A stretch of 64,000 nt of DNA, from NCBI GenBank assembly GCA_031213475.1, contig JARUPZ010000024.1, positions 8,993,324-9,057,323 on the forward strand, in the 5' to 3' direction. This document shows positions 824 through 63,476 of the stretch, one piece after another. Within the stretch, counting starts at the first letter, position 1. The number at the start of each line of letters is the position of its first letter. Source of the DNA: Nereocystis luetkeana (taxonomy: Eukaryota; Sar; Phaeophyceae; Laminariales; Laminariaceae). A program made the translations under genes and the position numbers. Below the pieces are notes generated by a model. It saw only the letters and a program-made list of their open reading frames with translations. It ran no database searches and was not told where the DNA came from.

Positions 824-1079
824 TACCTGGTAATTCGCACCTGCTCGAGTTTATGATACCTGGTACGAGATTGTGCGAGCACTGGTACACGGCCGGTAGG
901 TGTATTGCTGGTCGAGGGCTGCCAGTTGGCGATTTGCTCCAGAACCTGTCGTACGAGTAAGATCCTACTTGTACATACCTTGCTTGTACCAGGTTGTACC
1001 AGGTAGGATGTGTATAACGTCACACCGTCACATTTTGATACATGTACGAGTAAACAGCAGTAGTACCTGGTACCTGGTA
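824..1079. repeat. Cluster of five TACC(A/T)GGTA words
   Basis: Exact copies lie at 824-832, 857-865, about 997-1005, 1064-1072 and 1071-1079, the last two sharing a TA. A near copy (TACCAGGTT) lies just upstream of the third. Two TACGAGTA words (about 946 and 1045) are interleaved. This is the first cluster of the window-wide word described in the findings. Confidence 0.85.
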
Positions 1080-2138
1080 CTGTACTATTTACCTATCTGG
1101 TGCTCTGCAACCTGCAACCCTATCCTCTCATCTTCAAACCCTGGCTCGATCATACGCCTCCAGAAATCCGTACCATGTGTCGACTTGAAGGTGTCTGCTC
1201 CTCTTCTCCTCTTGGCTTAGTAGTTGTGCTCATGCAGCACTCTTGCAGCACAGTTCACAGCCCTGCTGGAGTTGGCTTTCCCGCCATTATCTACATCGAC
1301 ATCGTACTGCTGTCTACTTGACTGCTGTAAATTGCACAGGATCGCAGGTCCTCCTTCGTAGATTCGGTCGCACGTACACTCCTTTACTACCCCCATGGTT
1401 GGGTTCGGTCTCGTAGGAGAACCGCAAGGTCAAGTTAAACCTTGGCCACCAAGCTCTGACCCATCGTGTGCAGACAATCTCGTAAGTCCCGAGCGTGGTG
1501 ATATCTACGTTGCCGTCATATTCCTGAGGGGCAAGCTGGGAGGTTTAAACGAGCGTTGCCGCCAAAAAAACGCAGCATCGCAGACCTTGTGTGATTCGTA
1601 CCACATGCCAAGACCAGCAGAACTCACCTAGGGGGTGAAGACATACTATTAGGTACGGATTCCAGACCGAAGATTCACCAAGACGAAATTCGTTGACTCC
1701 AGCGGCTGCAGCTAATATCGAATTGGCTCCCACGTCCGTGCTTGCGTCCATGCGCCCGCACCGCACCCTTTTGAGTTTAAATTTGGCCGTAGTGGGGTTT
1801 CCATACTCGGCAACGTGGCATAATTATCGGGAAATGGTTGCAAAGTTATTGGGCCGCATCGTCCGATCCTGGGCCACTGCAGCAGTGCTGATGATGTGTG
1901 TGTTTTGTGGCATGTCATGATGTTGTCGGTTGTCGCACTTGCATTGCGGCATTGCGATATTAAGCACACAAACGGCCGCACACTTGTGGTGGCAGCCTGT
2001 GCCCGCAAGTCGACCCCTTCGCGATAAGCCGATGCGGGGACAATATTGTGGGGATGACGAAGCAATGCCGAATACATTCAAAATGGGTACTCACTTACGT
2101 TCTGGGCACCGGCATCCACGATGCTCGCGGTCTGTCGA

Positions 2139-4860
2139 CTACCAGGTACTACAGAGGACAGAGCAGTGCATCCCTCGTGCCCACTGTTTCTTTTTTTGCG
2201 AGCTGTCTGTGCCGCCGGCACCGTTTGGAAGCACCGACTAATCAACACGCATGACGATCGCGCCCGGGTCACCGCCCAGTACCTTACAATGCGCACGGGT
2301 CTCTACGGGCGAAGCCATCTTCCCTACACAGCATAAAGTACAGAGCAAAGGAGGCTGCGGGAGATCGCCTATCTGTTCGTTTACGAGCTGCGACGTGCGA
2401 GGGCGCGACAGCGTTAAAGATCAGGATGGCTATGAGGACCACGGTGGCAGCCAAGGCAACGAAGGTGGAGATAGCCAGACAGACGGACAAATCTTTGGGA
2501 GACGAACACTTCACAGGGAAGGATGGATGGATGCGTGCAACAACGGAGAACTTCGTCGTCGTCATGTACATGTATGTATGTGGTTGACGCAACACCCACT
2601 GCAAATTGATACCCGGTACCTGTGGTACAGCAGTATTAATAGTTACCTGGTACAAAGATGTGATCAATGCGGAGATTATCCACGGCTGTGATGCGAAGCA
2701 CAAGGGGGATATCGCACCGAAAGACAGCGACTGAATCTCCTTATAACACAAGAGGGCAAACCTCCTCTGCCACCGGCACGGCAAGGAAACATAACAGCAA
2801 CAACGGCATGTGGCCCTGGGCAAAGATGACAGGAGATATGTCAAGCAAGGGAAAACATACGCTGTCAAGGGTGCAAGGCCAAAATGTTCCCCAACAAAAC
2901 CTACTTTTGTACTTTGGCGTCAGTCAAGGCAAATCAAGCTGCCAAGGGCTGAAAGTGCTGGCCTGGATGAGCCGGGATCCTTTTATCGTCGTCCTGTTGG
3001 TTGTGGTACGAATCAAATTGTGTCATGCCAGCCATGCGGTAAATTCGATTTTTCGCTTGTTTGTGCGCTCACTGAGACTTCGATGTGGCTCTACGAGTAC
3101 GAGTGAAGACAACCAGCACTGCGCTTGTTGTAGACATGTTACAGTTTGTCCGGTTGTCTATGCTGTGCTTATTTACACTGACACCGCCATACTCTACGCG
3201 TAGACCGGTACTTGTAGCACAGTGGTACTACAACGACAGTATGAATAGTACTTAGATTAATAGTAGTCCTACAGTTAGTACATACTTGCTGTAGGTGGTG
3301 TCTTGTACTTGTTGGTACGACCTACCCCCAGTAAGCGCAACGAGTTGACCCGCGATTGTCGCCGTTCACCCGCCGTGGAGATTTTCTTGGTTAAAAACGT
3401 GCTTCCGTTGCCAATGGGGTATATCTGTTTGGCCGCAGATCGACCACATCCCATGCCCGAATCTCGTGGGAAACCGACAAGACAGGTGGAATCCTGCTCA
3501 GCCATGCTGAGTCTTGTTGAGGGAAAATGTTGGGTTGTGTACATGATCGGATGCAGGTACAAAATTGTTTCCTTGCGCACGAGCTAGCTCATCCATTTGT
3601 TTGTGTGACTGATCCCCACCACGATTCCGTACATCCATGGTACAACCTAATATCAGACAGTGGTGTTCTCGAACACTCACAGATCTCGAAATGCGGTACG
3701 AGTGCTGCCTTTCGTGTTTCGTGTTGTGATATAGGTTCGACTTTGTGCAACCGGTAGGTATGTGTGCAGACATGGCAAGATAACCAACGATGCCCAGTAC
3801 ATGGAAGCCCGAGCTAATGTAGAACTATTTCGTCGATGAAGATGCTGGCTTCGCCAATACGGACGCTTTAGTTGCTGACGAAGTGGTTCCCGTACGTCGT
3901 GGGGCGTTTCTGATGGTAATCCTGTTGATGACGCACTCCCTGATATGCTGCGAGAGGAATGAATGGTGAAGAATCATGCCTCCTTTCCAAGACTTGCACA
4001 CATAACGAAACAGCTTGCGCGGAGTATGAATGTCGGCATGCCTGAGACCCCAATCGACGCCGGAGGCTGAGCATGCGGATACCGCCTATATTAGAAACAT
4101 TTACAAGCGCCAGATGACTACTTTATTTCGGCTCATCCCAGGAGACCAATTCGGCCCATCCCTTCAGTCATTGACTCTATTAATAATATCTACTCACGTT
4201 TCGTAGTCAGGATAACTCTACTGTATGTACCTGGTATTGTTTTCGTTCGCGTTCTCTCACTCCGATCAAGCGCCATGGTTCTCCTTTAATTTTTCAAGTC
4301 TTGTCCGACCATTTACCTTGCATTATCATTTAGCGACTTGGAAGTATCGTGCCCCTACACATCGCCCCTTAGCCCTTTTGCAACTCTTATTTTTTCTCAT
4401 GGTAGTCTAGTTTCAAGTGTTTTGCCCCAAAAACACGGGTGCGGGGGTAAAAAGCGTTGGTGGATTCCAACGTTTTTTGTGTCATTTTAGACCTACGCAC
4501 TTCTTTGTACAGCGCTGTATTGGTGCATATCGTTTTCAGGTAGTTGGATATAGGGCAAAACGATTTAGTGCGAATCGAAAAGGGCATGCACATATTATAT
4601 CGCATGCCTCGTGCCTCTTTGTGTCCGTTATTTTGTACTGTTGCAACGATGGTATCAACAGTAGTGGTTCTAGACTAATGGGCCAGGACAAAAACGCAGT
4701 GATGATGCATACACTTAACAGCGTGACACGCTGAAGATCACAACGTTTGACCCCCCTGTCGTTACCTGAATACCGTCTGCTCCCACACGCTGCATGATGC
4801 ATGCAGCACTCCGGGCCGAGCGCACTCGAAGAGCCGAAAGACGGCAACAGTCAGAAACGC
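2139..4860. other. No recognisable gene or repeat family
   Basis: The stretch is mixed in composition. It holds scattered TACC(A/T)GGTA words (2139-2147, 2644-2652, 4228-4236) and, near 2625-2652, TACAGCAGTA, TATTAATA and TACCTGGTA close together. Open frames of up to 194 codons (minus, 2284-2868) and 178 codons (plus, 2667-3203) overlap on opposite strands and have no recognisable domain. Introns could hide exons here, but I cannot support any. Confidence 0.4.
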
Positions 4861-5100
4861 AGACAAGAACAGAATATGGTATCGAAAGGAGAAAAACGGG
4901 AAGGAGGTGAGTCGGGAATCGAAGGCAAAAAGGGCAGGAAAGGGACGCTACCAAGACAATATAGGTAAGGAAAAGAGGAAGGAGGGACGTATTTATTATG
5001 GAAAGGGCATGCACAACAAGTCAAAAGAGGGATAAGAGAACGGGAGACAGGAGGTGCGTGCAATATTGATGAAGAAGGGATATAAAAATGGTGGACGGGG
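4860..5100 (+). other. Purine-rich strand segment
   Basis: The plus strand is strongly A/G-rich over about 240 bases, with many GAAAAG, GGAAGG and GAGGAAG words. The complementary strand gives serine/proline/leucine-rich frames that I treat as composition effects. No gene is proposed. Confidence 0.5.
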
Positions 5101-5149
5101 TGAGGACCAAACAATGAATGGCGTGGCTGTATGCCGCAGTTCCGGCAGT

Positions 5150-8100
5150 AGCGTACAACGCAAGTGCCGTCGCCGAGACCATCGGGGGCACGGGTGTATG
5201 TTATTGGGCTCTTTAAGCTACATCAACGCACTCAGCCGCTCGAGCATTCGCCGTCGCCCCAGCCGCTGCGGCCATTGTGGCAACAGGCTGCGAAGAAGCA
5301 GCTGCAGCCCCGCGGTTGCTTTAGCCGCAGCATGGGAGCAGCGGGGTGTCGAGATGAAAGATCGGGAACAGGTCGCAATACACTCAACTGCTCCAGAATC
5401 TCCGTTGCTGCAATGACCCGAGAAGAAGCAGGAGAATTCTGACGCTGTAACACCACATGCGAGAGCCTTCGTCGCGGCCGGGGGAGGGCTATCGGGTAGG
5501 TTGTCCCTAAGCTTCAAGCAGCGCGCTCAGTTACCACAATATTCTCCGTCGGCTAGACAGTCATCACCGTTGCTGCACAACCTGAGTAGCGACAGAGAAA
5601 CTGCAGTCCTCGTGGCCACAGCCTGAGGACCAGTGGTCGCCACTGCCACAGTCGCAAGAGTAGGAGCAGCAGTGGTCGCCATCGCCGCCTCGGGGGGGGG
5701 CGGTCGAGCCGTAGGCCACAGCAACGCGCTAAATCGCCCCACCACTTCGTCATCGCCCGGGCCATCGACGCTGACGGCTACATCGCAAGTATTTACGACC
5801 CCTTGTAGCAGCGACACTCGCGCCCTCAGCCGTGTCCACGACCATTGTATCCATACGAGGCAGTTCCGGGACGGAGACAACATACGCGGCCGCGACTGAG
5901 TCCATGGTGATAGCGTCAAAATACGTGGGCCGACCTTCGGTGATAGCCACAACGGCGCATCCGTTGCAGTCGCGGCAACCGCAGTGAGAGGGAGCACCAC
6001 CATCGTGCTATGAACCCAGTCCCAGCCGCGACCGGAGACCCAAGGACGTGACCGTAGACCCGAGAACTGGCCGTGAGCCGTCGAGGAAACAACGCACGCG
6101 AGCGTCATCACGGTCACGGTCCCAGGGGGGGAGGGGGGGGGGGTGGTTGAGGGAATGGATTCGTGTTTCACAACAAAACGCTCAGTTGTTCCAGGTTTCG
6201 TTGACGTCTCAGTCACCGCCTTTGTTATACCTGGAAATATATTCACCACCACCAGCAGTGGCCACCGCTGGTGCCGAATCCGACATCTGCATTGTCGCCG
6301 AAGCAACAGAAGGAGTAGTGGTAACCGCCACCGCCGCCGGTACCAACGTCACAGCATTGCCAACAGCAGCGGCACTTGGCATCACAGCCACCGCCTTCGA
6401 CACCGCAGCATCGGCAGATAGATGCTGTGTCACTCAACACACCGACACACAGGCCAAAATGTGGCGGAGTTCAACCTCTGTATCTATTGTATCTATTAGG
6501 GGGCAAGGGTAGCGCAAGGCGGAGGAGGGGGGGGTAGCTGCACACAGGTGCTGAACGTGCAGCTGTACTTGTCCCGTCGCCACAGGCTTTAGGGCTCTGC
6601 AGGGGAGACCCACGGCCTCAGCCCAATCGTTACGCCTTGCTATGACGTACAGACCGGCAAAAGATCCCGCCAGCCACGGTGGAGTCGCTCTGTGCACTGT
6701 TTTCCGCTAGCAGGGGTGGTGGGGTACAACAACTCGAACGAAACCGGAAATAGCGATGTGGCGAGTTGTTAAGTGCAAGAAGGATTTATGAAGATTTTGC
6801 GGGGATCCCGGAGGCGATATTTTGTGGACGAGCAACACAGCGACACAGTGGTGCTCTTGACAAGTTTCCGAGTACTGTGAGATCGAGTAAAGGCGAGATA
6901 CGAGCCATACCCATATACCAGCTGTCGAGGGTCGGGGTCAACCCGCTTCGTCCACCAGCTAACGGCCTAACGGCGTGAAGAGTGGGATGATCCAAAAAAC
7001 ATTTTGCGCATACCTTGGCGACTCGCGACATGAGTCACGCTCTTTCTGTGGAAGTGATACTCACCCGAATGGGTGGACATTCGCTACCCGGCACACCCGT
7101 CTGGGGGGGCATGGTGACGGAATGGTACCGGATCTTCCTGAACAATAGGCAGTTAGAAATATTGGAGCAAACCCAACAGGGGGGCATGTTGGTCCTTGAA
7201 GGACTAGACCTCATTCTTTAGAGAGAGCCGCCAACGAACGTTGATCGCATCTGCGCATGAGCGCAGTTACGTCATGTAGGCGAGCAAGACCGCAAGGCCT
7301 CGAAACGGCGTACATTTAAGGGGGTACCTCGCCGCAAAACACGTACAGAGCTCTTCAACCAACACTGCAGGGATAGAAGGGGGGGCGATAGGGTTGTCAC
7401 AGGGCCAGCGACTGCTTCTGAGACAGAGAAAGATGGAGAAGGTTCCACCAAGGGATGGACGGCACGAAGGAGGTAGGCCACCACGCTGGCCACAACCCCA
7501 GGAGTGCAGGAACAACAGGAAGATCTGCGATAGTGCCCGTGTGGCGTTAGTGTCTGTGGATTATGACGCGGGGCTATTCCGAGGATGAGGAGATTGCACT
7601 CGATGACCACGGACCTATCGTCGCTGCCGCGACGCATTGCCCATTCTAGGCGCGCTCGAAATCCCCTCGGTCGCACGAAAGGGTGGAGCCGAGGCGACTG
7701 TTACAGGAAGAGAGGCCAGGATGACACCGACATCTATCACAGGAGAGAGGTTTCTGAGACAGGGCATCGACGGCAGAGGAATACGTAACATCCGCCGCCG
7801 AAGCATGACCCTGTCTTTTCCATGCGCGCGGCTCCAAACACCCTCTCGAAAACAGCACCTGAAGCCGTGGTGTCATACGGCTATTCCCAGAAGACACTCC
7901 CCGGGAAAATTGATATCGCAGGGCTGACGCCTAAACAGCGTAGAACCCGATATGCTGAACGCTGTTACCAAAGGCGACGACATGTTTCTAGCGAAAGTCG
8001 ATGATACGTCTTTGGGGTCTTCCCTTGGGCAATACTAGTCATCGCGCGCATTGTAGGTTGGGATGGGTACAAGAAAAAGTAGGAAGAAGGACCTTCCATG

Positions 8101-8950
8101 TCGCAACCGTCAAAAGTGGGCAGGTGGAGAGCACTCCAGTGTTCGTCGTCGAGCGCCGATCGGGGCCCGCTTTTGCCACCATAGACGTACACAGTCCAGA
8201 GCTGCTGCAACCGGCATCGCAGACTTATGAACAAAACTCAAGCGGGAGTACTCGGGGTGGACGTACGGGAATCATCAACAGAGGAAAGCGCGGTGATCGT
8301 GACAAGCGTAGTATTACCACGGGTAAGACTGGCGCCGCTGTCGTCACCGCTGATCGCCACCGTTGATCTATGCTACCGCCTAATAGATGTGAAGCTCATG
8401 CCGTCCAACGCTATCGGTGCCGCTTACTCAACCAGTGCAGCTGCTGCCACCCATTCCATCAGCCTCGTGTGAGACCACTGCGACCGCCTTTCCCGAGGGT
8501 GTCGGCAGAATGGGAAATGCCCATTTTGCGACTACGGCCGCTACCGCCGTCCCCGCTGCGAGGACTATCGCTGAAGATCGTCCGGTGTCCGTGGTGCTCT
8601 GCTATGGGGCATCACCATGTCTGCGCTTGGCAACGAAAATGGGGCATCCTGGTAAAACGTGGGCATATATGTTGACCGCGCGCTTCAGCGAGACTGCATG
8701 ATAGGTCAAGTTGTAGTTGCTGCTTCGGTATACTGTCTCTGCCTCTATTAACCTGTCCCACGGAAGCATTGCCTTCTCCTACTGATGGACTGCTCGGTGC
8801 GTGGTCTGGCTTACGTCTCCTTGGGTGTATTTTTCGCCCCGACAGTGGTATGCTTGATGCAGAGTCTCGAGGAGTTACCCAGACCCGCAGTCTTCCACAA
8901 ATATACCGGCACAAGTGGCGGAAGTGACGCGCGTCCTATCACCTTCTAAA
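5150..8950. other. GC-rich, ORF-dense block of uncertain coding status
   Basis: This 3.8-kb block is more GC-rich than its flanks, has overlapping open frames on both strands (the longest is minus 5527-6306, 259 codons, rich in A, T, V, S and P) and has no copy of TACC(A/T)GGTA, the window's commonest word. Several short plus-strand frames have varied, protein-like composition, for instance 6766-6978, 7015-7221, 7822-8004, 8001-8366 and 8227-8472. None matches a family I know. Either a diverged intron-containing gene, a decayed coding remnant, or simply GC-rich sequence would fit. Confidence 0.3.
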
Positions 8951-11553
8951 AACAAACAGCACTTCCTCTTGCTGCGGGCTGTTCTTGCTATTTTCCAGCA
9001 CACGCAGCGGTTGTGGTGACGATCTCGGCGATCATTGATTCATACATCTCCAGAGTTCTAAATGAGTACGTGATTCGAGACCGTATTGTTTAGCTTCATC
9101 TGCTTTCTTTGGCGGTTTTCATGCAGAGTGCTCTGGGACCGACTACCCTCCCTCTTGTAGTTGTGTGCAGGTGGTGTCAAAAACTATGTTTTCCTTTCAT
9201 GGTGTCGGCGCTGACCGCGTCAAATCTTTGTGGCCGAAGCGTCGTTCTTTGCCTTCTTCAGTCTTATTGATCTACAGCAGGAGTACTGACGCAATGTATA
9301 CACACATCACACCATCTTACAACAGTAGGTGTATATATACGGTGTCGATGGCCGCACCATTTCATCGCGTCCAGCGCTTAACTGCAGACGAGTGGCACCA
9401 ACCTGCACGCATAATCTATATACGCCACAACATGCCAGGCGTTTCTCACACTTCGTATTAAACGTATCGGCATGGGTTTACTCCCAGTTGCTGGCAGTGC
9501 TGCCGGTGCTCTCCATCTCCAACATTACTTTAATGGTTCGAATGATATTGTCCTGGAATACCATTATGTCACCAGAGGCTGCACTACTTGCAAACCGACG
9601 GTGTATAGACGGACGGTTCAGTACTCTGTGTGCCCATTCGCCGCACACACTAAAAATACCACGTGAGGCGGGAGCGCTGTTTCGGTCAAGCAAATTGTAC
9701 GCCTGTACCCATGACTTGCTTCATCCATTGTCTGTGTTGTGACAGGTTACTTTTTGTTTTTTATTGGCAGGTCGTATCGTATTGTACTGAACCCGACATG
9801 CGTTACAAATTTGGGAGCCGAGAACTTCAGGCTGAGTTGAAAAAAAAACAAAAACAGCTAAGCACATTTGCTCAGTGGGAGACGCCACTCTAAATCCTAT
9901 ATAATACCAGGTATCAGGTAGTATTCAAGAGCCTATCTATGCTCAACGTTCGCATGGCAGTTCAAGCCTCTGCCGAAATAGGAGTTTCTTAGCTGCTGTC
10001 GCGGAATGTATGATACTTCGAAATGTATACCAGGAAATGTTTTACAAAGTTCAATAATACCAGGTACGCCGTGAATGTGTGAATGTTTTGCCCTCGCCTC
10101 GACAAGAACAAACCATATGCGTGGTGACTACATGTGAATGTGCACTCGACGGGGGGCTGCAAGCGTGGCTGCGCACAACAATGGTCGAGCTCTGTATCAG
10201 TGACTTTCGTAGCTTACGCGTTTACCGTAAACCCATTATAATTCAAGATGCCCCTATTATGTGGAGAGACGCTTGCCACGCCGTGATCATAATGCCCAGT
10301 CCCCCAGTGACGAATCGTCAATGTAGTATGCCGTACGCAGTAGCCTACCCGCGACTTTGTTGTATTAGTAGTAGTGTATGTAGTGTCCTCACGACAAACC
10401 ACGAAGCACATATTTTGTCACTGCGCACTCATGTACTACAAGCATTACTGCTTCCGTTGTGGACTTCACACGTACATACTGCATATAGATAGGTACCTGG
10501 TGGGGCGTATGCTCAACGTATACGGACATTTGTCGTGTTTTCGAATTGTATGATTGTACTGAACAGTATCTGTAAGTCGGTACCAAACCGACCACGGGTA
10601 CATACGCTCACGAGCGCGGGGGCACGGGCACGGGGCACCAAGGTTCCTAGTCTCGTACTTTCATGTTATTGTATTTCGATACTGCACGACACTCGTCGTG
10701 GGTTATAGCAAGCAATCGATTACGTTTGATCAGCACTCAAGGTTCGATATTGCTCATCATCACTAAGAGCGGCGGGTTCCTCCTCTCCTGACTTCGTACT
10801 TAGCAACGGGGGCTGTACGCTGCAACACCAGTGAGTGAACTGCAGTATAAACAAAAGCACCCATCCACCCACTCACCCACCCACCCGTCAACCCACTAAC
10901 TCGCCCTTTACAACTACAGTAGTACTCGTACGCTTTTTAGTGTGCAAACGAATCGTATGGGTTTTAGTATCGGTACGCTGCACCACCGAAAAAACGTGTT
11001 ACCCACCCACGCACCCACACATGTACCGGTACTTACTCTAGTCATGTAGAAATGTAGTTGTTTCGGTGCGCAAACAAATCTTACGGGTATTAACCATTCT
11101 AAAATGTCATGCAAAAAAACGAGAAAAGGTCATACTACCCTTGTACTACAAGCTGTTTCCAGCGACAGCCAAAACTTTGCACGTTTGCAACCTAATATGT
11201 ACTCGGTATTTGAGAGTTGGAAAACGAACATTATTGGTAGGGTTGTGCGCCATGACAATACGAAAACAAAAATGTGACTGGGCTTAAAAAAAATGTACTT
11301 ACTTGTTCGTTTTTTTTGTACACCCTTCCAATTTTTCTTAATTTTTGGCAACTTTGATCCTCCCTGATCGGCGGCTTTCCCCCCCCCATAAAGTCCACTC
11401 GTGAGTCGTGAGTTTTTTTTCACATTGTTATTGGGGACAACCCTGCCAAATTTGATTTTCCAATTCTCAAAAACTCAATTGCAAAAATGAATCCCGTGAG
11501 AGAGCCAATTATTCGTTACGTACGTGGGGTTTCCGAAGAGTTCAAAAATATAA
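8951..11553. other. No recognisable gene; simple-sequence patches
   Basis: TACCAGGTA words occur near 9904 and 10052. A CCCA/CACC-rich patch lies at 10856-10905, with a shorter echo near 11003-11021 (CCCACCCACGCACCCAC). A GGGGGCACGGGCACGGGGCAC patch sits near 10618. The longest frames (about 137 codons near 9329 and 10079) have no recognisable domain. Confidence 0.4.
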
Positions 11554-11576
11554 TATTAATACAGCAGTACCTGGTA
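11554..11576 (+). repeat. Chain of three TA-bounded words
   Basis: TATTAATA (11554-11561), TACAGCAGTA (11560-11569) and TACCTGGTA (11568-11576) follow one another directly, each sharing its TA with the next. This is the clearest example of the words chaining. Confidence 0.85.
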
Positions 11577-11744
11577 TTCTTTTACGCTGCCGCTGATCAT
11601 TCAATGCAAGTATTGGATTGGATGAGGCATCCTGCCCCGGTCGGTGGTTCTACCCAAACTTCCTTGTATTCGTTGGTTTTTAATTGATCACCTACCAAGC
11701 GCTGTGTTGTCTCACCCAAACTTGTGTTGCTACGTACTGGTGTA

Positions 11745-11855
11745 CTATTACGGGGGACCATAGTTAATAGGACCAAATATTGTTTGTAAAGATAGGTGAA
11801 TATATATGTTTTTATGTATACCATACGTCCTATTAACTGTGGTCCCCCGTAATAG
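11745..11855. mobile_element. MITE family 1 (TA target, TTACGGGGG ends), copy 1
   Basis: A 111-bp element with near-perfect terminal inverted repeats of about 30 bp. The ends read TTACGGGGGACCATAGTTAA and its complement, bounded by TA. The interior is AT-rich and carries a conserved GGTTTTTATGTATACC-like stretch. There is no coding capacity, so a transposase in trans would be needed. A TA target duplication suggests Tc1/mariner-type mobilisation, which is inference. Eight more full or partial copies lie in the window. Confidence 0.88.
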
Positions 11856-53405: not shown

Positions 53406-53467
53406 TCCTGCGACCACGGACTGCATTGAATTGTGAGTTAATGTGAGAACAACAACAACAACAACAA
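53406..53467 (+). mobile_element. Retroposon 3' end with (AAC)n tail, copy 2
   Basis: GCGACCACGGACTGCATTG and a diverged bridge lead to GAGTTAATGTGAGAAC and about six AAC units. The middle differs from the other two copies. The upstream sequence is unrelated. Confidence 0.6.
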
Positions 53468-53614
53468 TGTTCGATATACGTCGATCATTCTGTCATCATG
53501 TACCAGGTGTTACGAACGGCTGCTACCGGTTGCAAAACCTTCACTATTCAGCTACTATTAGTATTAATAGTACCACTATACAGGTCCAGGTACAACATAC
53601 ATTAGTATTAATAG

Positions 53615-53724
53615 TATTACGGGGAACCATAGTAAATAAGACCTACGATGCATACAAGAACCTATATATTCCCCTATTTTTACGAACAACGCTGGGTCCT
53701 ATTCACTATGGTCACCCGTAATAG
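53615..53724. mobile_element. MITE family 1, copy 6
   Basis: The left end is TATTACGGGGAACCATAG. The interior has CCTACGATGCATACAAGAAC and ACGAACAACGCTGGGTCC, and the right end is CACTATGGTCACCCGTAATA. Just outside the left end is TATTAATAG, a possible footprint word, so two events may have hit neighbouring TAs. Confidence 0.85.
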
Positions 53725-53800
53725 CGTAGTAGCTTACATTCATACAGCAGCAGGGTATATTTTATTCATATTAATAGTAGTCATGGTCTCATACTCAGGT

Positions 53801-53859
53801 CTTTTGTGTGACCACGGACTCCTTCGTCAGAGAGTTAATGTGAGATCAACAACAACAAC
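53801..53859 (+). mobile_element. Retroposon 3' end with (AAC)n tail, copy 3
   Basis: Nearly identical to the copy at 22710 from TTTGTGTGACCACGGACTCC through GAGAGTTAATGTGAGA, with TCAACAACAACAAC as tail. The upstream sequence differs from both other copies. Confidence 0.65.
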
Positions 53860-54138
53860 TCAGGTATACTACTATAAGTACTATGTTATTAATAGTCGTT
53901 TTTTACGTGGACCCGACTGATCTCCCAAAACGGTTAGTTGGTTATTTGCCGCTGGGACAAGATTGTGAAGCCTTCCCCAAATTTTTTATATTGTTTGATA
54001 GATACCTGGTAGCATGACTTCAAATAAATATACGAGTACGTATATATACGACATTTTACGGGAGTTGCAATACATTTTTTTTGTGGCCTACCAGTGTCGC
54101 TCTACTCTTTCAACCTCCAGAGAGAAAAGGGTAGTGTA

Positions 54139-54255
54139 CTATTACGGGGGACCATAGTTAATAGGACCAAATATTGTTAGTAAAATGGTTAAATATACAG
54201 GTTTTTATGCATACCATACCAGGTAGGTCCTATTAACTATGGTCCCCCGTAATAG
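54139..54255. mobile_element. MITE family 1, copy 7, with inserted CCAGGTA
   Basis: The arms are near-perfect. At 54217-54225 the right half reads ACCATACCAGGTAGGTCC where the copy at 56831 reads ACCATAGGTCC. The difference is exactly seven bases, CCAGGTA, after a TA. This is one of the cleanest insertion comparisons in the window. Confidence 0.9.
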
Positions 54256-55110
54256 CTAGGGCAATAGGGTGCCTAGTGGGTCCTTCTGTCGGTTTGATAG
54301 AAAGCCCTGGTTGGCTGTTTGGAGGGAACATGTCCAGTTGGAATGAGGTCGGTGCAGGACCAGGGGGCAAGCAGGAGCATAGATAGAGTAGAGCCAGCTT
54401 AGGGGAAGAGGTTGCAGAATCTTGCCCCCGGAGGCAAGTCAATCACGCGTCGGGTGGGCTAACGTTGTGTTTTCTCGAGTACTTACACGTTTGATGCCTC
54501 GAAAACAAGCCTGCAAACCCCCAATGAAACCCTTCCACATATCGGACAGATAATCTATTCTAACATTTCATTGTCAAGGCATTTCAGCGCAGATGGATTC
54601 CCGATCTGTATGATCTACAGTGATCTGGATGATTTACAGTAGCTCATGTTGCCGCGTTGGAGCTGTACGATTTACATACTGTAGTAGGAGGACGCGTTTC
54701 CTGGCTTGTCCTGTACTGTACAGATCCTGCACAGCATCTGATAACGGCAGCTTAGTATGTAGACGATCTTGATCGTTCTGTGCGACTTGTGAACCTCTGG
54801 TAACCCTCGCCGTAGCTATTATTAACAACATGAAGATTAATACCTGGTAGTGGATAATAGTGGCTATTGATACTCGTACTACTACTATGTAGTCCAGGAA
54901 GCAAAAAAGGTTGGTAAAAATGTTGGGTTCGGACACGGGTTTTCGTTTTGTAGCTTTTGTTTATTTGTTTGAACCATTTATTCGATTAACCCATCTCCTT
55001 ACAACAATGCTGGAACCACACGGGAGTGCACACGGCACTCCGCTTTTATGTATATGATTCTACTTGCACTTAATCGAGTATGTTGATTGAAGAACCCTTG
55101 ATCCTGAAGG
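54256..55110. other. No recognisable gene
   Basis: Unique-looking sequence with a GATCTACAGTGATCTGGATG patch near 54610 and a TACCTGGTA near 54840. Frames are short. Confidence 0.4.
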
Positions 55111-55195
55111 TTGGCCCTTTTAAGACTGCAGTCCCGTTTTGGGGCCAAACTACTTGAATGTTGACTGCTTCGTCCCTGCACTTCTAAAAGGATAC
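55111..55195. mobile_element. MITE family 2, shortened copy
   Basis: The left arm CCCTTTTAAGACTGCAGTCC is well kept. The right arm is reduced to GTCCCTGCACTTCTAAAAGG. The TTAA targets are not visible. Confidence 0.7.
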
Positions 55196-55916
55196 CCATA
55201 CGACAGCAATCGAGCAGACAGAAGAGCATGGGATTATATGGTATAATAACCTGGTGCGCCCATTACACGCACTCCAATGCTACATACAACTTGCCAGTTG
55301 CTGAAGCACCGTTGTTGTGCCATGCTGTTCGGCATGGATGGATCCACGCGCCTGAATCCAGGCAGGAGCCACTGCCAGCGAAAAGCCACTGGATAACCAC
55401 TGGCGGTCTGGTTGACGAGGGTATAGAAATATATTCCGAATACCAGTACATGATTCATCATGTTATTATAGCCCTATTGCCCTCCACTGCCTAACCTTGA
55501 CCCCAATCCATACCCTGCCAAAACAGGAAGGTATATTCGGGGGGGGGGGGGAAAGAGACGGCAGATTTGTTTTTCGAGTCCAAAACAAAATTCTAGACAA
55601 GAAAATTGCCATCCTGTCTCATTTGTCCCAATTTTTCACCCGTTCTGGTCTGCGTCTCATTCTCACCTTTCGAAGTAGTGCAGGTCATTTTTTTTCATGT
55701 GTTATTATTGGTGTACTCTCGACCCTGCCCTTGTGAGGAGGTTTGCCAGACTGAAAAACAAACTAGTAAGAACTAAAAACGTATTAATAACTAAAAACGT
55801 ATACCTATACCTGTTCCATACACTAATTTTTCACTCTGAAACCTCGGCGTTTACGGTATTGATAGACCCACAAAGCCTACAACGTCCTGCTGTTCTTGTG
55901 CGTTTCATCCTGTTAA
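55196..55916. other. No recognisable gene
   Basis: A G-run lies at 55540-55552. The short frames on both strands have no recognisable domain. A tandem AACTAAAAACGTAT word occurs near 55775-55801. Confidence 0.4.
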
Positions 55917-56028
55917 TATTACGGGGAACCATAGTTAATAGGACCTATGGTATACATAAAAACTATATATTTAAACCATTTTTACTAACAATATTTGGTC
56001 CTATTAACTATGCTCCCCCGTAATAGTT
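55917..56028. mobile_element. MITE family 1, copy 8
   Basis: The left end is TATTACGGGGAACCATAGTT. The interior has CCTATGGTATACATAAAAAC and ACTAACAATATTTGGTCC, and the right end is CTATGCTCCCCCGTAATAG. The arms are about 30 bases long. Confidence 0.87.
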
Positions 56029-56830
56029 GTATTGTCAGTAACAACGATGCTGTAAACAGAATGCTACGCCAAGAACGCACACAATGCCGTAGTATACTAC
56101 TCTGTAATATGTAGATCAATATGTACCTTAGTTGACTTTTTTCCGGAATACTTTTGCTTTTCTCCGCCGGCCGCGGGTCTTCTCCCGCACCCTCGACTGC
56201 GTGGCACTCAGAGAGCCCGCGTGTACATCTCGGCGCAAATGCGGAATCCGGCCGAGGTCCGTGGCGCGTGCTACGGGCCCTCAAATTCGCGAATTCTGGC
56301 AAGTAACTACGGGGAGCCATTCCGACCTGCTAAGAGTTTAGCAGGAAAGTGGAAACCCCAAAGAACTGAAGATTTTACTCTGCTGCTGGCTGTTGGCTGC
56401 AGCTGCTGCTACTGCTGTATGTCTGCTCACGCCGTTCCTCGAGCATCACACCACCCCTCGAGCTCTCTACAACGAGGCAGCCATGGAACGGCAGTAGTCG
56501 CTCATCATCCTTTTGGGATGACCACGGACGGCGCATTTTGTGTGTGCGTGTGAGGGCCTTGATTCCAGTTAACCTAGGAACTAGGAACGAACACACGCAC
56601 AATCTGAAGACAGTCGGGATTGGATGCTGCGCAGGGGGAAGGACGACGACAACGCGTATAAGCTCACACTTTCTAGGTGTTTAAAAAGCAACCGCGCAGC
56701 CACGACACGCACTACAGCAGCAGTGTATCCGCACACATGTGTGTGCTGTGTTCACCAGGAGATACCGGACAATTTGAGAATCCAGCACACACGTCGTCAA
56801 ACCTCGTCCTGTCACAGCAGCAGTATACAG
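56029..56830. other. No recognisable gene
   Basis: GC-rich in the left half, with a CTGCTG-rich patch near 56381-56420. Frames of about 110 codons on both strands have no domain. Confidence 0.4.
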
Positions 56831-56940
56831 TATTACGGGGGTCCATAGTTAATAGGACCAAATATTGTTGGTAAAAATGGTCAAATACATGGGTTTTTAT
56901 GTACACCATAGGTCCTGTTAACTATGGTCCCCCGTAATAG
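56831..56940. mobile_element. MITE family 1, copy 9
   Basis: TATTACGGGGGTCCATAGTT at the left and CTATGGTCCCCCGTAATA at the right. It has the uninterrupted ACCATAGGTCC used for comparison with copy 7. Its right end touches the truncated head of a SINE B copy, so it may have inserted into that head. Confidence 0.9.
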
Positions 56941-56943
56941 CAC

Positions 56944-57270
56944 TCGGATGGCTTGGTAGGTGGTCGGCGTGCCTTTCAAGATCAATTTCGTGGGTTCAAG
57001 TCCCACCGAGTGCATGCTCGTAGGGACTTTTTCTTGCATTCAAAATTGATTAGCGGAAAGCGCGAGAGCGTGAGTTAACTACATTCGATGAAAGTCAATG
57101 AGTAGTGGGAATACTGAACCCTATGCGCCACAAAAAAAGGCACGTGCCGGGGGGGAGAAGGGACGACACCTGTGAACACGGCTTGTCCAGAAGATCGCTG
57201 AGGGTAAAACCTCCTACGAATTAGGCTGGAAAGTAAAAGTGATCACTAGAACAAAAATTAAAATAAAAAA
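56944..57270 (+). mobile_element. SINE family B, 5' end trimmed
   Basis: It starts at GGATGGCTTGGTAGGTGGTC and has the B box GTGGGTTCAAGTCCCACC, the CATTCGATGAAAGTCAATGA core and CAAAAAAAGGCACGTGCCGG. It ends CCTCCTACGAATTAGGCTGG followed by an A-rich tail. The plain CTCCTACGA is the uninterrupted state compared with the copy at 28953. Confidence 0.87.
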
Positions 57271-57465
57271 GTAGGAATACCTCATGATTCTGTTTCCCCC
57301 TTTTCAACTTGCAACACCCCCCCCCCGAGATTTCAAGTCAACTACATCCCGAAGGAGAACCTTGCAATATGTTAGAATATGAATACCGTACGATTCAACT
57401 CGCTAGCCATAACGCACCGCCTCAGACGATTTTCAAAGCTGGGTTTCTCGACAACGGGGAGGAAG

Positions 57466-57564
57466 TTATAACCCTTTGAGAACCGCAGTCCCGTTTTGGG
57501 GACAAAGCACTCAAATTTCAAGTATTTTGTCCCCAGAACGGGACTGCGTTCCTAAAAGGGTTGA
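57466..57564. mobile_element. MITE family 2, copy
   Basis: The left arm is CCCTTTGAGAACCGCAGTCC and the right arm is GGACTGCGTTCCTAAAAGGG. Flanks read TATAA and TTGA, so the TTAA targets have drifted. It lies only 94 bases from the next copy. Confidence 0.85.
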
Positions 57565-57657
57565 AAGTTCTGCACTTTTTTTTTTCTTCGTGGTTTCCCC
57601 CGTGGTTTTCGTTGTCCTGGGAGTGTTTATGAGTGATGAACGTTGAAGCCCATACTA

Positions 57658-57754
57658 TTAACCCTTTTAGAACCGCAGTCCCGTTTTGGGGACAGACCTG
57701 TCAAATTTCAAGTGGTTTGTCCCCAAAACGGGACTGCGGTTCTAAAGGGGTTAA
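57658..57754. mobile_element. MITE family 2 with intact TTAA target duplication
   Basis: TTAA at 57658-57661 and TTAA at 57751-57754 bracket CCCTTTTAGAACCGCAGTCC and a near-perfect complement. The loop is ACCTGTCAAATTTCAAGTGG. It is probably the youngest family 2 copy here. Confidence 0.92.
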
Positions 57755-60700
57755 AGCAGCAGCAGGAGTGCCAAGTACCTATCTACCAAAATACATAATG
57801 AAAATACAAATAATGTTGTGCTTCGTACTCGTATTAGTAGCCGTACCCGGTACATAACCATTTACACGAGAAGTAGTGGGGGCAGGATAAAAGCGGTGTA
57901 CTGCGCCAACGTTTTTAGCCGCCTTTTTTTTCGAGTGGCCGCCGCAACCATTACAGGGCGGTTGAGTTGACCGCCCTATTGGGTTTTTGTTCGTTACCAA
58001 GGGTGCAGAAACCGCCCTCCTACTGGAGCAAACACAGCATTGCAGTAGACAAAACAGTGTGGTCCTGACCCAACAGGTGACCTAGGGTGCCACACGGAGG
58101 GAGATTGTGCTCGAAGAAGGAAGGCGCGCCAATTCGGCAGTGCTGCTGCAGTCATGCCAGCACTGAATCCGGTGAACATGTGTCATGTGAAACGCTTACA
58201 AAACACCGCAGCAAGGTAGACGTGTGCACAACACACGCACACTTTACACGTGACGAAGAGTACGTGGTACAAAACTAGGTGAGCTGCGTGCGACCGTACG
58301 CGCTGAAGGCACACACGGTCACGCTCTTGTGCCGATAGGACTCTTCGCACAGCTATACATTCAGAGCAGAAGTTCAACCTGTACTACGGTACCGTACTAC
58401 TGACTGATATATAAAATGTACTACTGTAATCGACAACAGCACTCCGCTGTGCAACCCCCCATCTATGTCTGCCTGTCGCACTGTCTTAGAGACGTGCTTT
58501 GACGAACGCCATCCTGGCCTTCTGCAGATAAGAAGCAGCATCGCCATTGCCGCACGCCGCCGCCGCGCTCTCTAGTGCAACGGAATTGCGACGATAGCTC
58601 TACTTGGGAGGGGCACCGGCCCCGTGCCCTGTGGCGTCGTGATCGGCATCCTCAGTCTGGACAACGCTTATCCCCTCGATCATCGTGGTTCCAAGACAAT
58701 TATGGGAAGAGGCGCTTGCGTCGGGTCGCAGTATGGGCCGTCTTCACCGCAGATTCCTTGGGGCCGACCCCCGCGCTTTCCGCGTCATTCGTTGACGTCA
58801 GCGCGCTCTGGGGTGTGTCCTGAAACCAAACACAGTTCGCCTGCCGCGCAGGGCGTCGTGCTTATCCCCATGGCCCGTGGTGCTCCAGGGGTGCGTTTGT
58901 ACTTGCAGCAACAGCAGCAAGAGGAGGAGCAGCAGGGGGGTGTCACGTATATCAACCACGAGGAGCAGAGCGGAGCGAGGTTTTGTACTGAGTGGGCAGT
59001 TGAGTAGGGCTGGGCCACCGCTCCATATACTCCCCGGGGGCCTATTACAGGGCGTTAGCCGCCCTTTTAGGGTTTCTGTCGAGGCAGCCGATTTCCGCCG
59101 CCTTACCTCGAGCGGCCGCCATATTCTCACCGCCTTATGTAGGCCCCACTCCTGTGTATCGATGATGGATTTGAGCAGCAGGTTGCGTTGCCGAAAGCAC
59201 CGACCAAAACCACGTTTGTCGGTGGCTGCGCCGAATGCTTGGTCTATCGGATCTAGTGGCATATTTCTCGTGTTGGTGATGGGCTGCAGAGATATCCGGC
59301 TATCGCTTTGCTAGGGATTAGGAAGGGTCTCTCCGACTCAATAATGGCGGACCGGCCATGATTGCGATTATGCAGCTCGCCCGAACGAAGTGAGAGATGG
59401 CACGAGGTTGAAACGTACGAAGCAATGGGGCTGTGTGATGACTGCCAGTACCACAGCAGGACGGCAGCGCGAAACCGACGACACGAAATACGTGTTTTGA
59501 GACCTACGCACAATATGCGACAGCATCACGAGAATAGCCATGCTAATATTTGGCGCGTGTGCTACATGCCTTTCCATCTTCATTTGGGCGCCTGGCGTAT
59601 CACAGCGACCAGGGTTTTCAGATTTGAACGTTGCGGAAATTGCCACATTCGAGGGACATGAATCTCTGCCCTATTAAGGCAGTAAATATTTTCTCTTTTT
59701 CGCTCTCTCTGTTATTAATAGGTGTTGAGGTTCGTGCAAAATCACCAAGAAAATAATGTTGGGACCATTAAAATCGTTACGTCAACACATCTGAAATTAG
59801 CATGTTCGGTGTGTGTACAGCAGCAAAACGAGCAGAAAAACGACAAAGCAAACAACACGAACAAACGCGGTAACGAAAAAATATATTGTGGGACATTTCA
59901 CATCAACGTTGGTGCGCCTTCTGCAGAAACCAAGCACATCAGGCACCTTTCATCTCTCTTGAGGACCCTGTTGTTTATGGCATGCGTACGGAGTTCCGGC
60001 GCAACCAAAAACGACCAAATTTGTGCCGAAATGACTATTCGACAGCCAAATTGGGTCTACTACGGGCAACGCCTCTCAATCATTGAGATGTACTTGATAT
60101 CTTACCTCGTGTTCTACAACAAAACATCAATCGGATCGAAAGCACCACTTGATCGGGGGAGCGCCGTCAACTCATAAGCTATTCGGCACATACATACCCC
60201 GAGGTGTGCCCCAAACATGAGGACCAGCAGTGGCGAGTACGCCGGTCGCAGGCGATCGACGGAAACACCGAGACCTTCGGTTTGTTGGCTTGATGTACGG
60301 ACGGTTGTCGTTATGCCTGTTTCATGAGAACGCTGGTGACGTTGTCCCCCCCACCTGCCGGTGCTATTGCGCCCTTTTCAGAAAGAAGAACGGCACCCAT
60401 ACTCCGAGCGTCGGACATTTACGCGTGTCGCAGAAAAAAACGAAATCGCTGTTGCCCATTACGTACAAGAGGAGCTGGCCAACGTTCGCTCACTCTACCG
60501 ATACTGCTGTAGTTGCATTTACGTTGTCGGCTGGTGCTGTCCTTCTTTCGAAGCTGGTGAACATTTAGTCTACATTAAAAACAAGAGCAACTATGTACGA
60601 GGTATTCATGGCAAGATCTAAATATGAACATGGTACAGTGTATATGATACATTAGCGTCGGCGTATTCGTATACGAAAGACGCGAAACACTTGAGAAATA

Positions 60701-61350
60701 AAAGGGAAAACAACAAGCAGAAGATGCGGAGTTTTATACCCCCCCCCCCAAAAAAAAAAAGCTGACGGAAAAGTAAGGGCACTGGGGGAGGCATATTACG
60801 TACCCGCACAGTATGTAGAAGTGGGGAGAAGTCCGAGGGCGGCCCTCGATGTCACAGCTACGTTACGGTCACGGGAAGGCACACAGCATGATCATGATTC
60901 GCGCTCCCCGTGTTTTCATGTTGGCCGTCACCAAGCGAAGGTCGTAGATGGTGATCCATGTCGATGTACGACCACTGCTTCACACATTTATAATGTTCAA
61001 TATTTGGTCCCTAATAGGTCATGGTTGATGAACTTGCTCAACCTTCTTGTATACCGGTATAATATGCTACGGCAGTGCATTAGCATACGAGTACCCCCCG
61101 TGTACCGACTCGTAGGGCGCATGAGAGGTTTTTATTTAAAAAAAAAACACACACACACACATACACACACTTCGCTATATATACATGGTGTCGGTTTTTA
61201 GGCGAATTGGATTCATCCACGCTACAGCAGGATAGCTAAAAAAGCTCAATTGATTGATGGGATTAATTAAACCCACCCCTCTCAGCTTACAGTACAGCCA
61301 GTCGTAGTGTGTACTACGTGCCCCTCTTATACTCGTGAGACGAAATTATT
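57755..61350. other. No confirmed gene; GC foldbacks and possible decayed coding
   Basis: Two GC-rich patches (57905-57985 and 59038-59130) share ACAGGGCG, CGCCCT and GCCGCC words. A purine-rich CAGCAG/GAGGAG patch lies at 58905-58940. In 59722-60621 several short plus frames have varied, protein-like composition (59722-60177, 151 codons; 60230-60568; 60361-60621), overlapping in different frames. None is recognised. This could be a decayed coding region or chance. Confidence 0.3.
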
Positions 61351-61632
61351 ATGATTCGCACCACGTATTATAGGTCAAGTTATATGAGATCGAACATTTC
61401 GTCGAAGCTCATCTTCGCATCTTGCGTGTTACTTGCAGCAGTATTGATAGCGTGTTATATATACCTCGATCGCGAGTGCTATGAACGAGTTGCGCATGAC
61501 CTCATCGTCAAGGATGTAGTCCGGCGGCCCCGCTGGGGCGCTAGTGCCAGGGTTGACAAGAACGGCCAGCCTGTAATCATTCTGCGCCCTTTTTTTCTGT
61601 TTGGAGCCCTCCTCTCATTTGAGCGGGACTAA
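61351..61632 (+). other. Possible small membrane protein frame, 93 codons
   Basis: The frame has a basic start, one strong hydrophobic helix at about residues 20-43 (LIFASCVLLAAVLIACYIYL), then a charged segment and a hydrophobic end. It looks like a single-pass topology. The DNA at 61378-61440 also resembles the conserved-motif family of 45-47 kb but in a different frame, so the resemblance does not support this translation. No family is recognised. Confidence 0.2.
61378..61440 (+). repeat. Conserved-motif family, copy 4 (tentative)
   Basis: GAGATCGAACATTTCGTCGA and AGCTCATCTTCGCATCTTGC match copy 1 and copy 2 at most positions. In the matching frame it reads E-I-E-H-F-V-E-A-H. The extension is weaker than between copies 1 and 3. 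Confidence 0.4.
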
Positions 61633-61774
61633 ATCTGACAGCTGGCTGCGAACGATTCGTTGTGTATCCATGGTTCCGAACATATATTAATATGTTCCGG
61701 CTTATGTATCGTATGTACTGGTGCTGCTGCTTCAGCTGTCAAGATGTACCCGGTATATTTCAAGAGGTGCCCAT

Positions 61775-61870
61775 TTAACCCTTTTAGGGCCGCAGTCCCG
61801 TTTTGGGGACGAACCACTCACATTCCAAGTAGTTTGTCTCCCTAAAGGGACTGCACTCCTAAAAGGGTTA
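61775..61870. mobile_element. MITE family 2, copy
   Basis: TTAA at 61775-61778 precedes CCCTTTTAGGGCCGCAGTCC. The right arm reads GGGACTGCACTCCTAAAAGG, then GTTAC, so the right target has changed by one base. Confidence 0.86.
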
Positions 61871-62073
61871 CGAGTAGTGAAGCAGAATGGAGCCGAATGC
61901 GGCCGTTCGTTTGCATATCGATCGTTCGTATGTCACATTTCGTCACGTACGTGTGTGTACATGTCGTACGTAGGTCGGCATTCTGGTTACACCCGTTGAT
62001 TTTACCGCGCTTCGGCTTCGAAGAACGTTCATCTCACGCTTATTATAGCTCTTTTTTTTGCAGCTCAGCGAGA

Positions 62074-62445
62074 GCGTGACGAAGGGCTCGAACACCATCT
62101 ATGTGGAGGTAGCACCTGCTGAGCTATGGGGATAAAAATATCCATCGATCGCCCAGGCCAGGGTACTCTTTATAGCACCCCCCCCCCCCCCCCCCCCTCT
62201 GCACGGCGGGATATTTGGGGCGTCGGTACCGTATACGGCCGTACGCTGACCTACCCGCTTCGTTTCAATACCTGAGGTACCAGAGAGGTATCTATTCAGG
62301 GACGCACGCGCAAGCGCTTCTATAAAAGAATGCTTAAAGTGAGATTCGAACCCGTGTCCTCGACTACGTGAAATGCGAAGATGTTACCTACCGAGGTATA
62401 GGGGGACAAGGCTGATCGATTACCAAGCCCAGGGTATCACTTATG
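62074..62445 (-). mobile_element. SINE family D, two heads in tandem
   Basis: Two tRNA-like heads in the same minus orientation lie at 62338-62404 (A-box CCTCGGTAGG; B box GGGTTCGAATCTC) and 62074-62131 (A-box TAGCTCAGCAGG; B box GTGTTCGAGCCC). Between them are the body (CGCGTGCGTCC..TTGAAACGAAGC) and one tail unit with a long C-run. A further unit start lies at 62418-62445. The layout is a tandem of element 3' end followed by the next head, about 270-285 bp apart. Confidence 0.72.
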
Positions 62446-62888
62446 ACGTCTACTGCTGTGTGTTTACTCTACAGGTCACGTTAACATATACCTGGTACCT
62501 GGTATTTTATCGCTCTCCCAGTGACCCAGTAACGAAAAAAAAGCTCACAGGCACCCAAACTCCTAAAACTGTGGGGACGAATGTAGAAACAAACCGGTGG
62601 GCGGGGGTTTCTGGACGATTATACGCACGATAAAGTGTTCTATTTTTTTCAAACTTGATTTTAGTACACCCCCCCCCCCCCCCCCCCCCCCCACCGCCCA
62701 TGTCTTGGTCTCCAAAATGGATAGTGCGCGGTGTCGCTTTTTTTTTTAGTGCCCCCCCCTGGCTCACTGGAGTGATTGCTAAATTGAGGGCAGCCTGAAA
62801 AAAACCAAGATGGCTCTTATTTGCTAGATTTTTAGCTTGGTGAAGGCGGAGATCCTACAGAAACTGTGAAGCCGCGTCCGGCCGAAAA

Positions 62889-63140
62889 ATGTCGCCGACA
62901 AATGTGAAGAGCCGAAAAAAAGAGGTGCTGGGTTCGAGATCGGGACCCAAGAATGCAGGCGACAATGCCAAAAAGAAAGTGGTTCCAAGAGTTGGAACCC
63001 AAATATCAGGTGGGAAACGACGTGCGACCTCGATTGTAGTGGCAGGCGACCCCGGTTACTGTAAGGTTAAGTACTACAGTAAGTATTGGCTACGAAACCA
63101 ACACAAAGCCAGATGGCAGGGATTGTGGGAGAACTACTAG
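62889..63140 (+). other. Possible short lysine-rich coding frame, 83 codons
   Basis: The translation is basic and has mixed composition without runs (for example residues near RVGTQISGGKRRATSIVVAG). A GTAAGG near 63061 could act as a splice donor, so the frame might be a first exon. I know no matching family. A GGGTTCGAGATCGGGACCC word within it resembles a B box and is also self-complementary, so an RNA-derived repeat is an alternative. Confidence 0.2.
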
Positions 63141-63427
63141 CCATCCCACCCACCCAACCAGCTTCTGCAGGCGGTAGTATCGCACCTGGTACTGTTTTTT
63201 TTTGTCTTGCAGCATCGCACAGTTAGTTGGCGTCAGTTGCAATATCTATCCGGGCAAGTTATTGGCGAGGGCTATAGCCCATCTTCAACGTTGTTTTGAT
63301 CCTCCAACCCATAAACTGACACAACGTACAGCACTTTATTGAGGTATCCCCCCCCCATCATCCAATCAAGACTCAAGGAACCAGGGAGTGGTTGGTCTTG
63401 ACCTTAATTCGGGAGATGCGGTGTATA

Positions 63428-63476
63428 TGATACCAGGTATCAGGTACATACCTGGTCCAGGTGTACACCTGGTACC
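63428..63476. repeat. Cluster of TACCAGGTA-type words
   Basis: One exact TACCAGGTA and four one-base variants (TATCAGGTA, TACCTGGTC, CACCTGGTA and similar) occur within 50 bases. Confidence 0.75.

Follow-up and report, generated by a model that had tools for sequence, protein, structure and literature searches.

Transposons of the Tc1/mariner superfamily cut DNA 2–3 nucleotides (nt) inside their 5′ ends, leaving 2–3 nt per side, and PMC2170065 describes such footprints at a duplicated TA for Tc1, Mos1 and ISY100 (Tc1/mariner/IS630). Here we describe short words bounded by TA, foremost TACCWGGTA (W = A or T), in a window of 64,000 nt (the whole stretch analysed) from the brown alga Nereocystis luetkeana (GenBank assembly GCA_031213475.1, contig JARUPZ010000024.1, positions 8,993,324 to 9,057,323, forward strand). 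These words are genuine insertions with the same target, the same duplication and, in the commonest of them, apparently the same 2–3 nt per side; with a probability of roughly 0.75, these commonest words were left behind on excision by Tc1/mariner-type TA-target transposons and their miniature inverted-repeat transposable elements (MITEs).

The pattern nevertheless differs from those of the described systems. ISY100 leaves TATATA junctions, whereas here one identical apparent scar recurs at about 0.39 per kilobase (kb) genome-wide. Triticeae Stowaway MITEs, according to PMC1925063, leave several distinct TA-bounded footprints made of 1–4 nt terminal fragments with unequal sides, and re-insert at the same TA adjoining an old footprint; five footprints were found at one intron site, whereas here a single word predominates and occupies 182,395 places. 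The Mariner-Tc1 elements and MITEs of Ectocarpus, which are brown-algal, of the TA type and mostly non-autonomous, include one transposase with an EsV-1-7 domain, and the main text of that study has zero mentions of 'footprint' or 'excision' (PMC12477816). None of the publication titles listed in our searches concerns words of the TACCWGGTA type as genome-wide scars; the nine letters as such occur in 217 papers. Ciliate internal eliminated sequences are also TA-bounded, and a transposase relative removes them precisely, leaving one TA; the sites described here, in contrast, keep extra bases.

Short words inserted at TA

Over positions 824..63988, TACCWGGTA was seen 62 times where dinucleotide composition predicts 0.5, its two orientations (29 and 33) being about equally frequent. 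The whole assembly (465,085,209 bases) holds 182,395 copies, against 1,744 of a reversed control word. Density is 0.97 per kb in the window, 0.39 genome-wide and 0.30 in 20 other stretches of 10 kb each, which gave 60 words among 12,027 TAs, or 0.5 per 100 TA; an earlier note on this DNA had remarked on the density, and it is indeed unusual. In sequence filtered for repeats and microsatellites, counts between two TAs exceeded expectation (observed/expected) for CCWGG (99/3.0), TTAA (43/8.3), CGAG/CTCG (38/5.3) and CAGCAG/CTGCTG (23/1.0), and did so under a stricter expectation that treats the flanks as independent (96/40.4, 41/13.5, 38/7.9 and 24/11.3, respectively). CAGCAG and CGAG, and likewise CWG, CG and TSA, are each in excess between TAs. 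Long arrays of (ATT)n, (AGT)n and (ACT)n (window 25049-25172, 26629-26728, 47902-47987 and 63689-63862) skew statistics of TA context; the window also has many poly-C runs.

The earlier note had quoted seven pairs of filled and empty repeat copies, and all seven are present in the window, where it placed them or a few bases off (Table 1). Its central claim, that a core plus TA is added at a pre-existing TA, was borne out in two ways. An all-against-all comparison of repeats in our sample gave 1,033 distinct places of insertion or deletion (indels). Indels of 7 base pairs (bp) occupied 41 distinct places, 15 of them with a duplicated TA, and 13 of these 15 were CCWGG; 14 of 77 indels of 6 bp were of the TA type (four TTAA, no CGAG), as were 4 of 27 of 8 bp (no CAGCAG). 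This listing shows CCWGG and TTAA directly as insertions. In addition, 149 genome copies of an abundant MITE, MITE1, carry 3–24 extra bases at the TA where GGGGACCATA meets GTTAATAGGACC. Among the 100 insertions listed, 88 end in TA and 29 contain TACCWGGTA (a single CCWGG in 24); the others include CG (6), CWG (4), CGAG (2), TTAA (2) and plain tandem duplications (22). At a control gap 3 bases upstream (GGGGACC/ATAGTTAATAGGACC) all 91 matches were listed, comprising 48 distinct strings; TACCWGGTA was absent, as were CAGCAG, CGAG and CG between TAs, while CWG occurred once and TATTAATA four times. The TA-bounded short words are, therefore, genuine insertions. As to the word types that the note had named, CCWGG and TTAA stand on direct evidence, CGAG on only 2 of the 100 listed insertions, and CAGCAG on only the seventh quoted pair and its over-abundance.

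Of the 238 filled MITE1 sites with GGGGACCATACCWGG in the genome, we read 20 (the first 21 listed, minus one already known). The insertion continues directly to TA in 19. In 18 the MITE1 sequence is taken up again, if loosely in L048 and L049, and in L055 and L062 it is not. Six sites hold two or three tandem units, in mixed orientation in four of the six. Two other insertions were seen in MITE1. A 15-bp insertion, TTACGGGGGACCATA, which is a copy of the MITE1 end within MITE1, recurs at the TA after GGGGACCA (six identical among 100 listed; C4, C5, C13, C15 and C18), and an identical CATA insertion is found on five small contigs (C1229, C1234, C1367, C1411 and C1414), perhaps representing one young repeated or satellite-like sequence.

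Target signatures of words and elements

Among 112 CCWGG words without an adjoining unit, TA lies exactly at -7/-6 in 29 on the left and 35 on the right, against 8.2 expected per side. These 64 half-sites have 58 different intervening pentamers; a few of them, such as CCTGA (three times), may be decayed units, but most are not. The half-site consensus of CCWGG is W(-7) A(-6) ... R(-1) TA, with a purine beside the TA. The TTAA words, in turn, have T, A and C at -3 to -1, that is TAC/TA, as at MITE1. The latter element is bounded by a filled/empty comparison and has a duplicated TA, ends TTACGGGG and flanks TAC/TA; the boundary of the copy at 54140..54254 is taken from L013:6044-6150 compared with L019 near 5818.

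The second element, MITE2, is a MITE of 83 bp between two TAs; its ends are CCACTCTG, in the context TA/CCACTCTGTYCC, and it surfaced during a search for the parent of CAGCAG. The query there was a palindrome (L019:7397-7531, ends TACTGCTGTYKTGGCGCC), at the centre of which MITE2 lies. The other 39 places found fall within query 70-167 of 51-185, 29 of them starting at 76-79 and 34 ending at 157-161, with the TAs at 77-78 and 158-159. As the CAGCAG parent the outer palindrome is unproven: it is single-copy genome-wide, and only its own locus covers the outer arms; it is possibly another TA element. We read 20 near-complete MITE2 copies, part of whose flanking TAs have decayed. At L078 and L080 (2 of 42 half-sites) a CCWGG word directly adjoins MITE2, as would be expected from a common target preference.

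Compared with the flank profiles of the words, the 42 half-sites of MITE2 match CCWGG (none of 5000 background draws did as well) but not TTAA (4906/5000), whereas the 32 of MITE1 match TTAA (0/5000) but not CCWGG (4225/5000). A signature test against unmasked background was misleading, with z values of 10.8 for pooled other 5-mers and 6.0 for GGWCC that stem from CTA microsatellites and from words internal to MITE1; it was, therefore, repeated in masked sequence with pooled controls. There, element-derived profiles gave the same answer as the flanks, CCWGG fitting MITE2 (0/4000) and TTAA fitting MITE1 (0/4000), while pooled other 5-mers, 4-mers and 6-mers fit neither element (MITE2 excess -0.07, -0.13 and 0.02 bits). 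Masked frequencies of WA at -7 are 0.43 for MITE2, 0.47 for CCWGG (156 half-sites) and 0.36 for CCAG (28), against a background of 0.14; values for TTAA, CAGCAG, CGAG, CG, CSG, CWG, TSA and TGAA are between 0.09 and 0.18, and that for TCAA (35) is 0.23. C at -1 has a frequency of 0.62 in MITE1 and 0.51 in TTAA, against 0.20 in background, with CAGCAG at 0.40 and CWG at 0.44, which hints at one common source for the last two. The CCWGG and TTAA words thus have two different target signatures, shared with MITE2 and MITE1, respectively. The earlier note had spoken of a family of insertions; insertion at TA holds, whereas a single family oversimplifies, no fewer than two elements that differ in their preferred targets being involved.

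Probable excision footprints and other possible origins

In the mechanism that we favour, an element would enter at TA, duplicating it; on departure it would be cut 2–3 nt inside each end, and the site would be rejoined as TA, the end nt of either side, and TA. MITE1 (TA/TTACGGGG...CCCCGTAA/TA) would leave TA-TT/AA-TA, and an element with MITE2 ends (TA/CCACTCTG...CAGAGTGG/TA) would leave TA-CCA/GG-TA or TA-CC/TGG-TA, i.e. CCWGG, its W being accounted for if 3 nt stay on one side and 2 on the other. CCATGG (3+3) does not occur in the sample. The CCWGG and TTAA words show the marks of Tc1/mariner footprints: insertion at a duplicated TA, the target-site preference of an element, and a core of 2–3 nt per transposon end for TT/AA (MITE1) and for CCA/GG and CC/TGG (MITE2). 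We infer excision itself, the cut positions, and that the element behind the CCWGG scars is served by the same transposase as MITE2. TTAA words (63 in 264 kb) and merged MITE1 places (36 in 288 kb) are alike in number, the pattern expected of ordinary footprints. The conserved terminal repeat of Stowaway is CTCCCTCC; neither the MITE1 nor the MITE2 ends match it. The suggestion of the earlier note that TA-target footprints explain the symmetric cores is thus supported by signatures and terminal-inverted-repeat letters for TTAA/MITE1 and CCWGG/MITE2, and its doubt about CAGCAG was well placed, since that word still has no explanation. Neither CAGCAG nor CGAG is derivable from any confirmed element here, and CWG, CG and TSA likewise have no confirmed parent. 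CAGCAG, CGAG, CWG and CG are presumably scars of other families; CGAG would be consistent with ends CTC or CGA that left a 3+1 remnant.

The transposase would favour TAs preceded by WA, in many cases TA, at -7/-6. As CCWGG+TA makes 7 bases, a scar necessarily puts a TA at -7 from the TA that adjoins it; the flanks of a scar would become better targets, and tandem scars would accrue in either orientation. Word pairs with a common TA number 15,917 genome-wide (control 2), or 8.7 per 100 words; the two words have the same orientation in 9,539 pairs and opposite orientations in 6,378 (40%). The use of half-sites with TA at -7 is about 3.5-fold that of background (0.28-0.29 vs 0.08); at 0.5 words per 100 TA, some 3.5 pairs would thus be expected for every 100 words. 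The -7 preference would, therefore, account for part of the tandem excess, regional clustering and duplication probably supplying the rest.

Several observations weigh against excision. MITE2 is rare, with 162 first-look candidates (40 scored) against 182,395 words, and a profile search of the 288-kb sample gave a single copy of full length; the words may outnumber MITE2 by a factor of up to a thousand, the MITE2 figures being rough. None of the 20 filled MITE1 sites read holds a resident element. The exact 14-base ends TACCACTCTGTYCC occur 1,288 times genome-wide (control 5), and this tally was rejected as a MITE2 count, since the first 20 listed all belong to a different repeat. The signatures are not exclusive, which lowers our confidence in footprints: the MITE1 profile is matched by CAGCAG (2/4000) and CWG (3/4000) too, and that of MITE2 by TSA (0/4000), which lacks WA at -7. 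Of the minor footprints that MITE2 predicts, CG (820/4000) and CSG (3456/4000) lack its signature, and that of CCAG is weak (149/4000). CAGCAG is not predicted by a 2–3 nt cut, and excision would be known from its products only. The DDE transposase domain PF13358 had no match in the genome (control matches in 3 of 14 genomes), although introns may hide it; PF01359 had none either, with no control match in any genome; and 28 open frames compared with Pfam yielded reverse transcriptase and no DNA-transposon domain.

The different repeat just mentioned (L088-L107; L010:8924 and L015:8903) has a conserved flank, GCTGTACTGGCA, and a MITE2-like end followed by GAGGCGCGCGAGCGCGAAGCGCGAGCC; its 20 flanks do not match the signature (1996/10000) and were excluded from the test. 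Two other parents were considered. One for CCWGG with long ends (window 10028-13139; 3,112 bp, ends TACCAGGRWATGTTTTACA), from 71 end pairs, was superseded by the MITE2 match; its null of 20/20,000 per pair amounts to about 7% by chance overall. One for CGAG (L017:7538-7623, ends CGAGYATTGT) is single-copy in the sample.

The disproportion between words and elements could come from a low-copy element that moved very often with no gain in copies; alternatively, it speaks for a transposase, or a domesticated relative, that inserts 7 bp directly, for example by abortive integration, trimming and joining, most sites never having been occupied. Such a reaction would suit 182,395 words beside about 162 candidate MITE2 places, the 20 sites free of an element, and the tandem units in 6 of these 20, four of the six of mixed orientation. 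However, insertion and excision already account for the letters and the target signature, and the similar numbers of TTAA words and MITE1 places are footprint-like. We know of no reaction of this kind, although no dedicated search was made, and consider it unlikely. Replication slippage or tandem duplication, with a microsatellite-like spread, would explain the 22 plain tandem duplications among the 100 listed insertions and the surplus of same-orientation pairs. It is contradicted for CCWGG, where the inserted unit does not copy its neighbour: single CCWGG insertions at the tested MITE1 TA have no adjoining template, the target signature is palindromic, and slippage alone is insufficient for the 40% of pairs that are inverted. 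We judge it very improbable.

Very improbable, too, is an ancestral origin of the words, with shorter copies produced by random deletion, a reading that the earlier note had named as fatal to its own. It could draw on short interspersed element (SINE) B, where 11 of 12 aligned copies carry a word (9 CCAGG, 1 CCTGG, 1 CGAGG); these were, however, picked for likeness to the filled query, and of six site-spanning copies found without using the word three are empty, one (the query) is filled and two are altered. The word apparently entered a single SINE lineage, which later multiplied. MITE1 leads us to reject this reading, as CCWGG is found in four of 34 near-full copies, at three positions, and the filled state is thus rare there; moreover, GGGGACCATACCWGG occurs at 238 places genome-wide (control 1), against 13 exact empty sites in the 290-kb sample alone. 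Selection maintaining CCWGG as protein-binding or methylation sites, which the extreme excess of one near-palindromic word might suggest, has a negligible chance of being correct, given that the words sit within MITE copies, duplicate TA and have a target signature in common with one of the MITEs.

Features of the window and meaning of the apparent scars

The coordinates are collected in Table 1. The two MITE1 copies around 32 kb lie in a 189-bp tandem duplication (window 32094-32470, 96% matches). A second abundant MITE-like repeat has an apparent TTAA target duplication (a 93-bp filled/empty comparison at 18957-19047) and ends CCCKTTTAGAACCGCAGTCCCG, and is piggyBac-like by target only. Nine stretches with the word pair lie in viral contigs. 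Elsewhere in the genome, frames of TIG repeats with Ephrin_rec_like domains occur at L020. The EsV-1-7 domain PF19114 is plentiful (1,719 candidates; 150 of 150 scored passed the cut-off) and was found in none of 14 control genomes; PMC12477816 describes this domain as expanded in brown algae and elsewhere chiefly known from giant viruses, so that by this domain the genome looks brown-algal.

Table 1. Words, word clusters and MITE-like copies in the window (strand left blank where unassigned)
Feature	Position	Strand	Remark
CCAGG word in SINE B	29248..29256	+	empty counterpart TA 57215-57216
CCAGG word in MITE1 copy	54217..54225	+	empty counterpart TA 56909-56910
Two tandem CCAGG units in R1	32970..32985	-	empty counterpart 13919-13920
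Two tandem CCAGG units in R1	29875..29890	+	empty counterpart 13959-13960
TTAA word in R1	14647..14654	+	empty counterpart 17563-17564
TTAA word in R1	15059..15066	+	empty counterpart 30320-30321
CTGCTG word in R1	15354..15363	+	empty counterpart 34702-34703
TACCWGGTA, dispersed	824..63988		62 (29 TACCAGGTA + 33 TACCTGGTA), window count
TTAA word TATTAATA, dispersed	824..63988		31, window count
TACAGCAGTA/TACTGCTGTA, dispersed	824..63988		14, window count
TACGAGTA/TACTCGTA, dispersed	824..63988		20, window count
Tandem pair CCTGG-CCTGG	1064..1079		
Tandem pair CCTGG-CCTGG	39758..39773		adjoins MITE1 end
Tandem pair CCAGG-CCTGG	48125..48140		opposite orientation
Tandem pair CCTGG-CCTGG	62489..62504		
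Chain TTAA, CAGCAG, CCTGG	11554..11576		common TAs
Cluster CAGCAG, TTAA, CCTGG	2626..2652		
MITE1 copy	54140..54254		TA duplicated at target; terminal repeat TTACGGGGGACCATAG; apparent parent of TTAA words
MITE1 copy	11746..11854		
MITE1 copy	15518..15621		
MITE1 copy	55917..56025		
MITE1 copy	56831..56939		empty at position filled at 54217
MITE1 copy	32182..32291		within tandem duplication
MITE1 copy	32371..32470		within tandem duplication
MITE1 copy	39642..39758		
MITE1 copy	53612..53725		
MITE1 copy	63852..63977		
TTAA-target MITE-like repeat	18952-19053, 57469-57565, 57657-57755, 61772-61870, 13795-13893		

It is conceivable, though doubtful, that a low-copy transposon wrote some 182,000 identical 7-bp scars, by copy-neutral hopping or by direct insertion, and that the TA-N5-TA spacing self-primes arrays. 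If scars do prime themselves, a mutational mark would greatly outnumber the transposon that makes it. Most footprints are sparse and diverse; in this genome there would be one countable scar, perhaps one per hop, and, if so, transposition rate, target choice and end-joining fidelity could be read over long periods from one genome and between strains. This suggests that a transposon family could mark a genome heavily at very few copies, activity that annotation of element copies would miss, and that the scars would be ready presence/absence markers in a brown alga.

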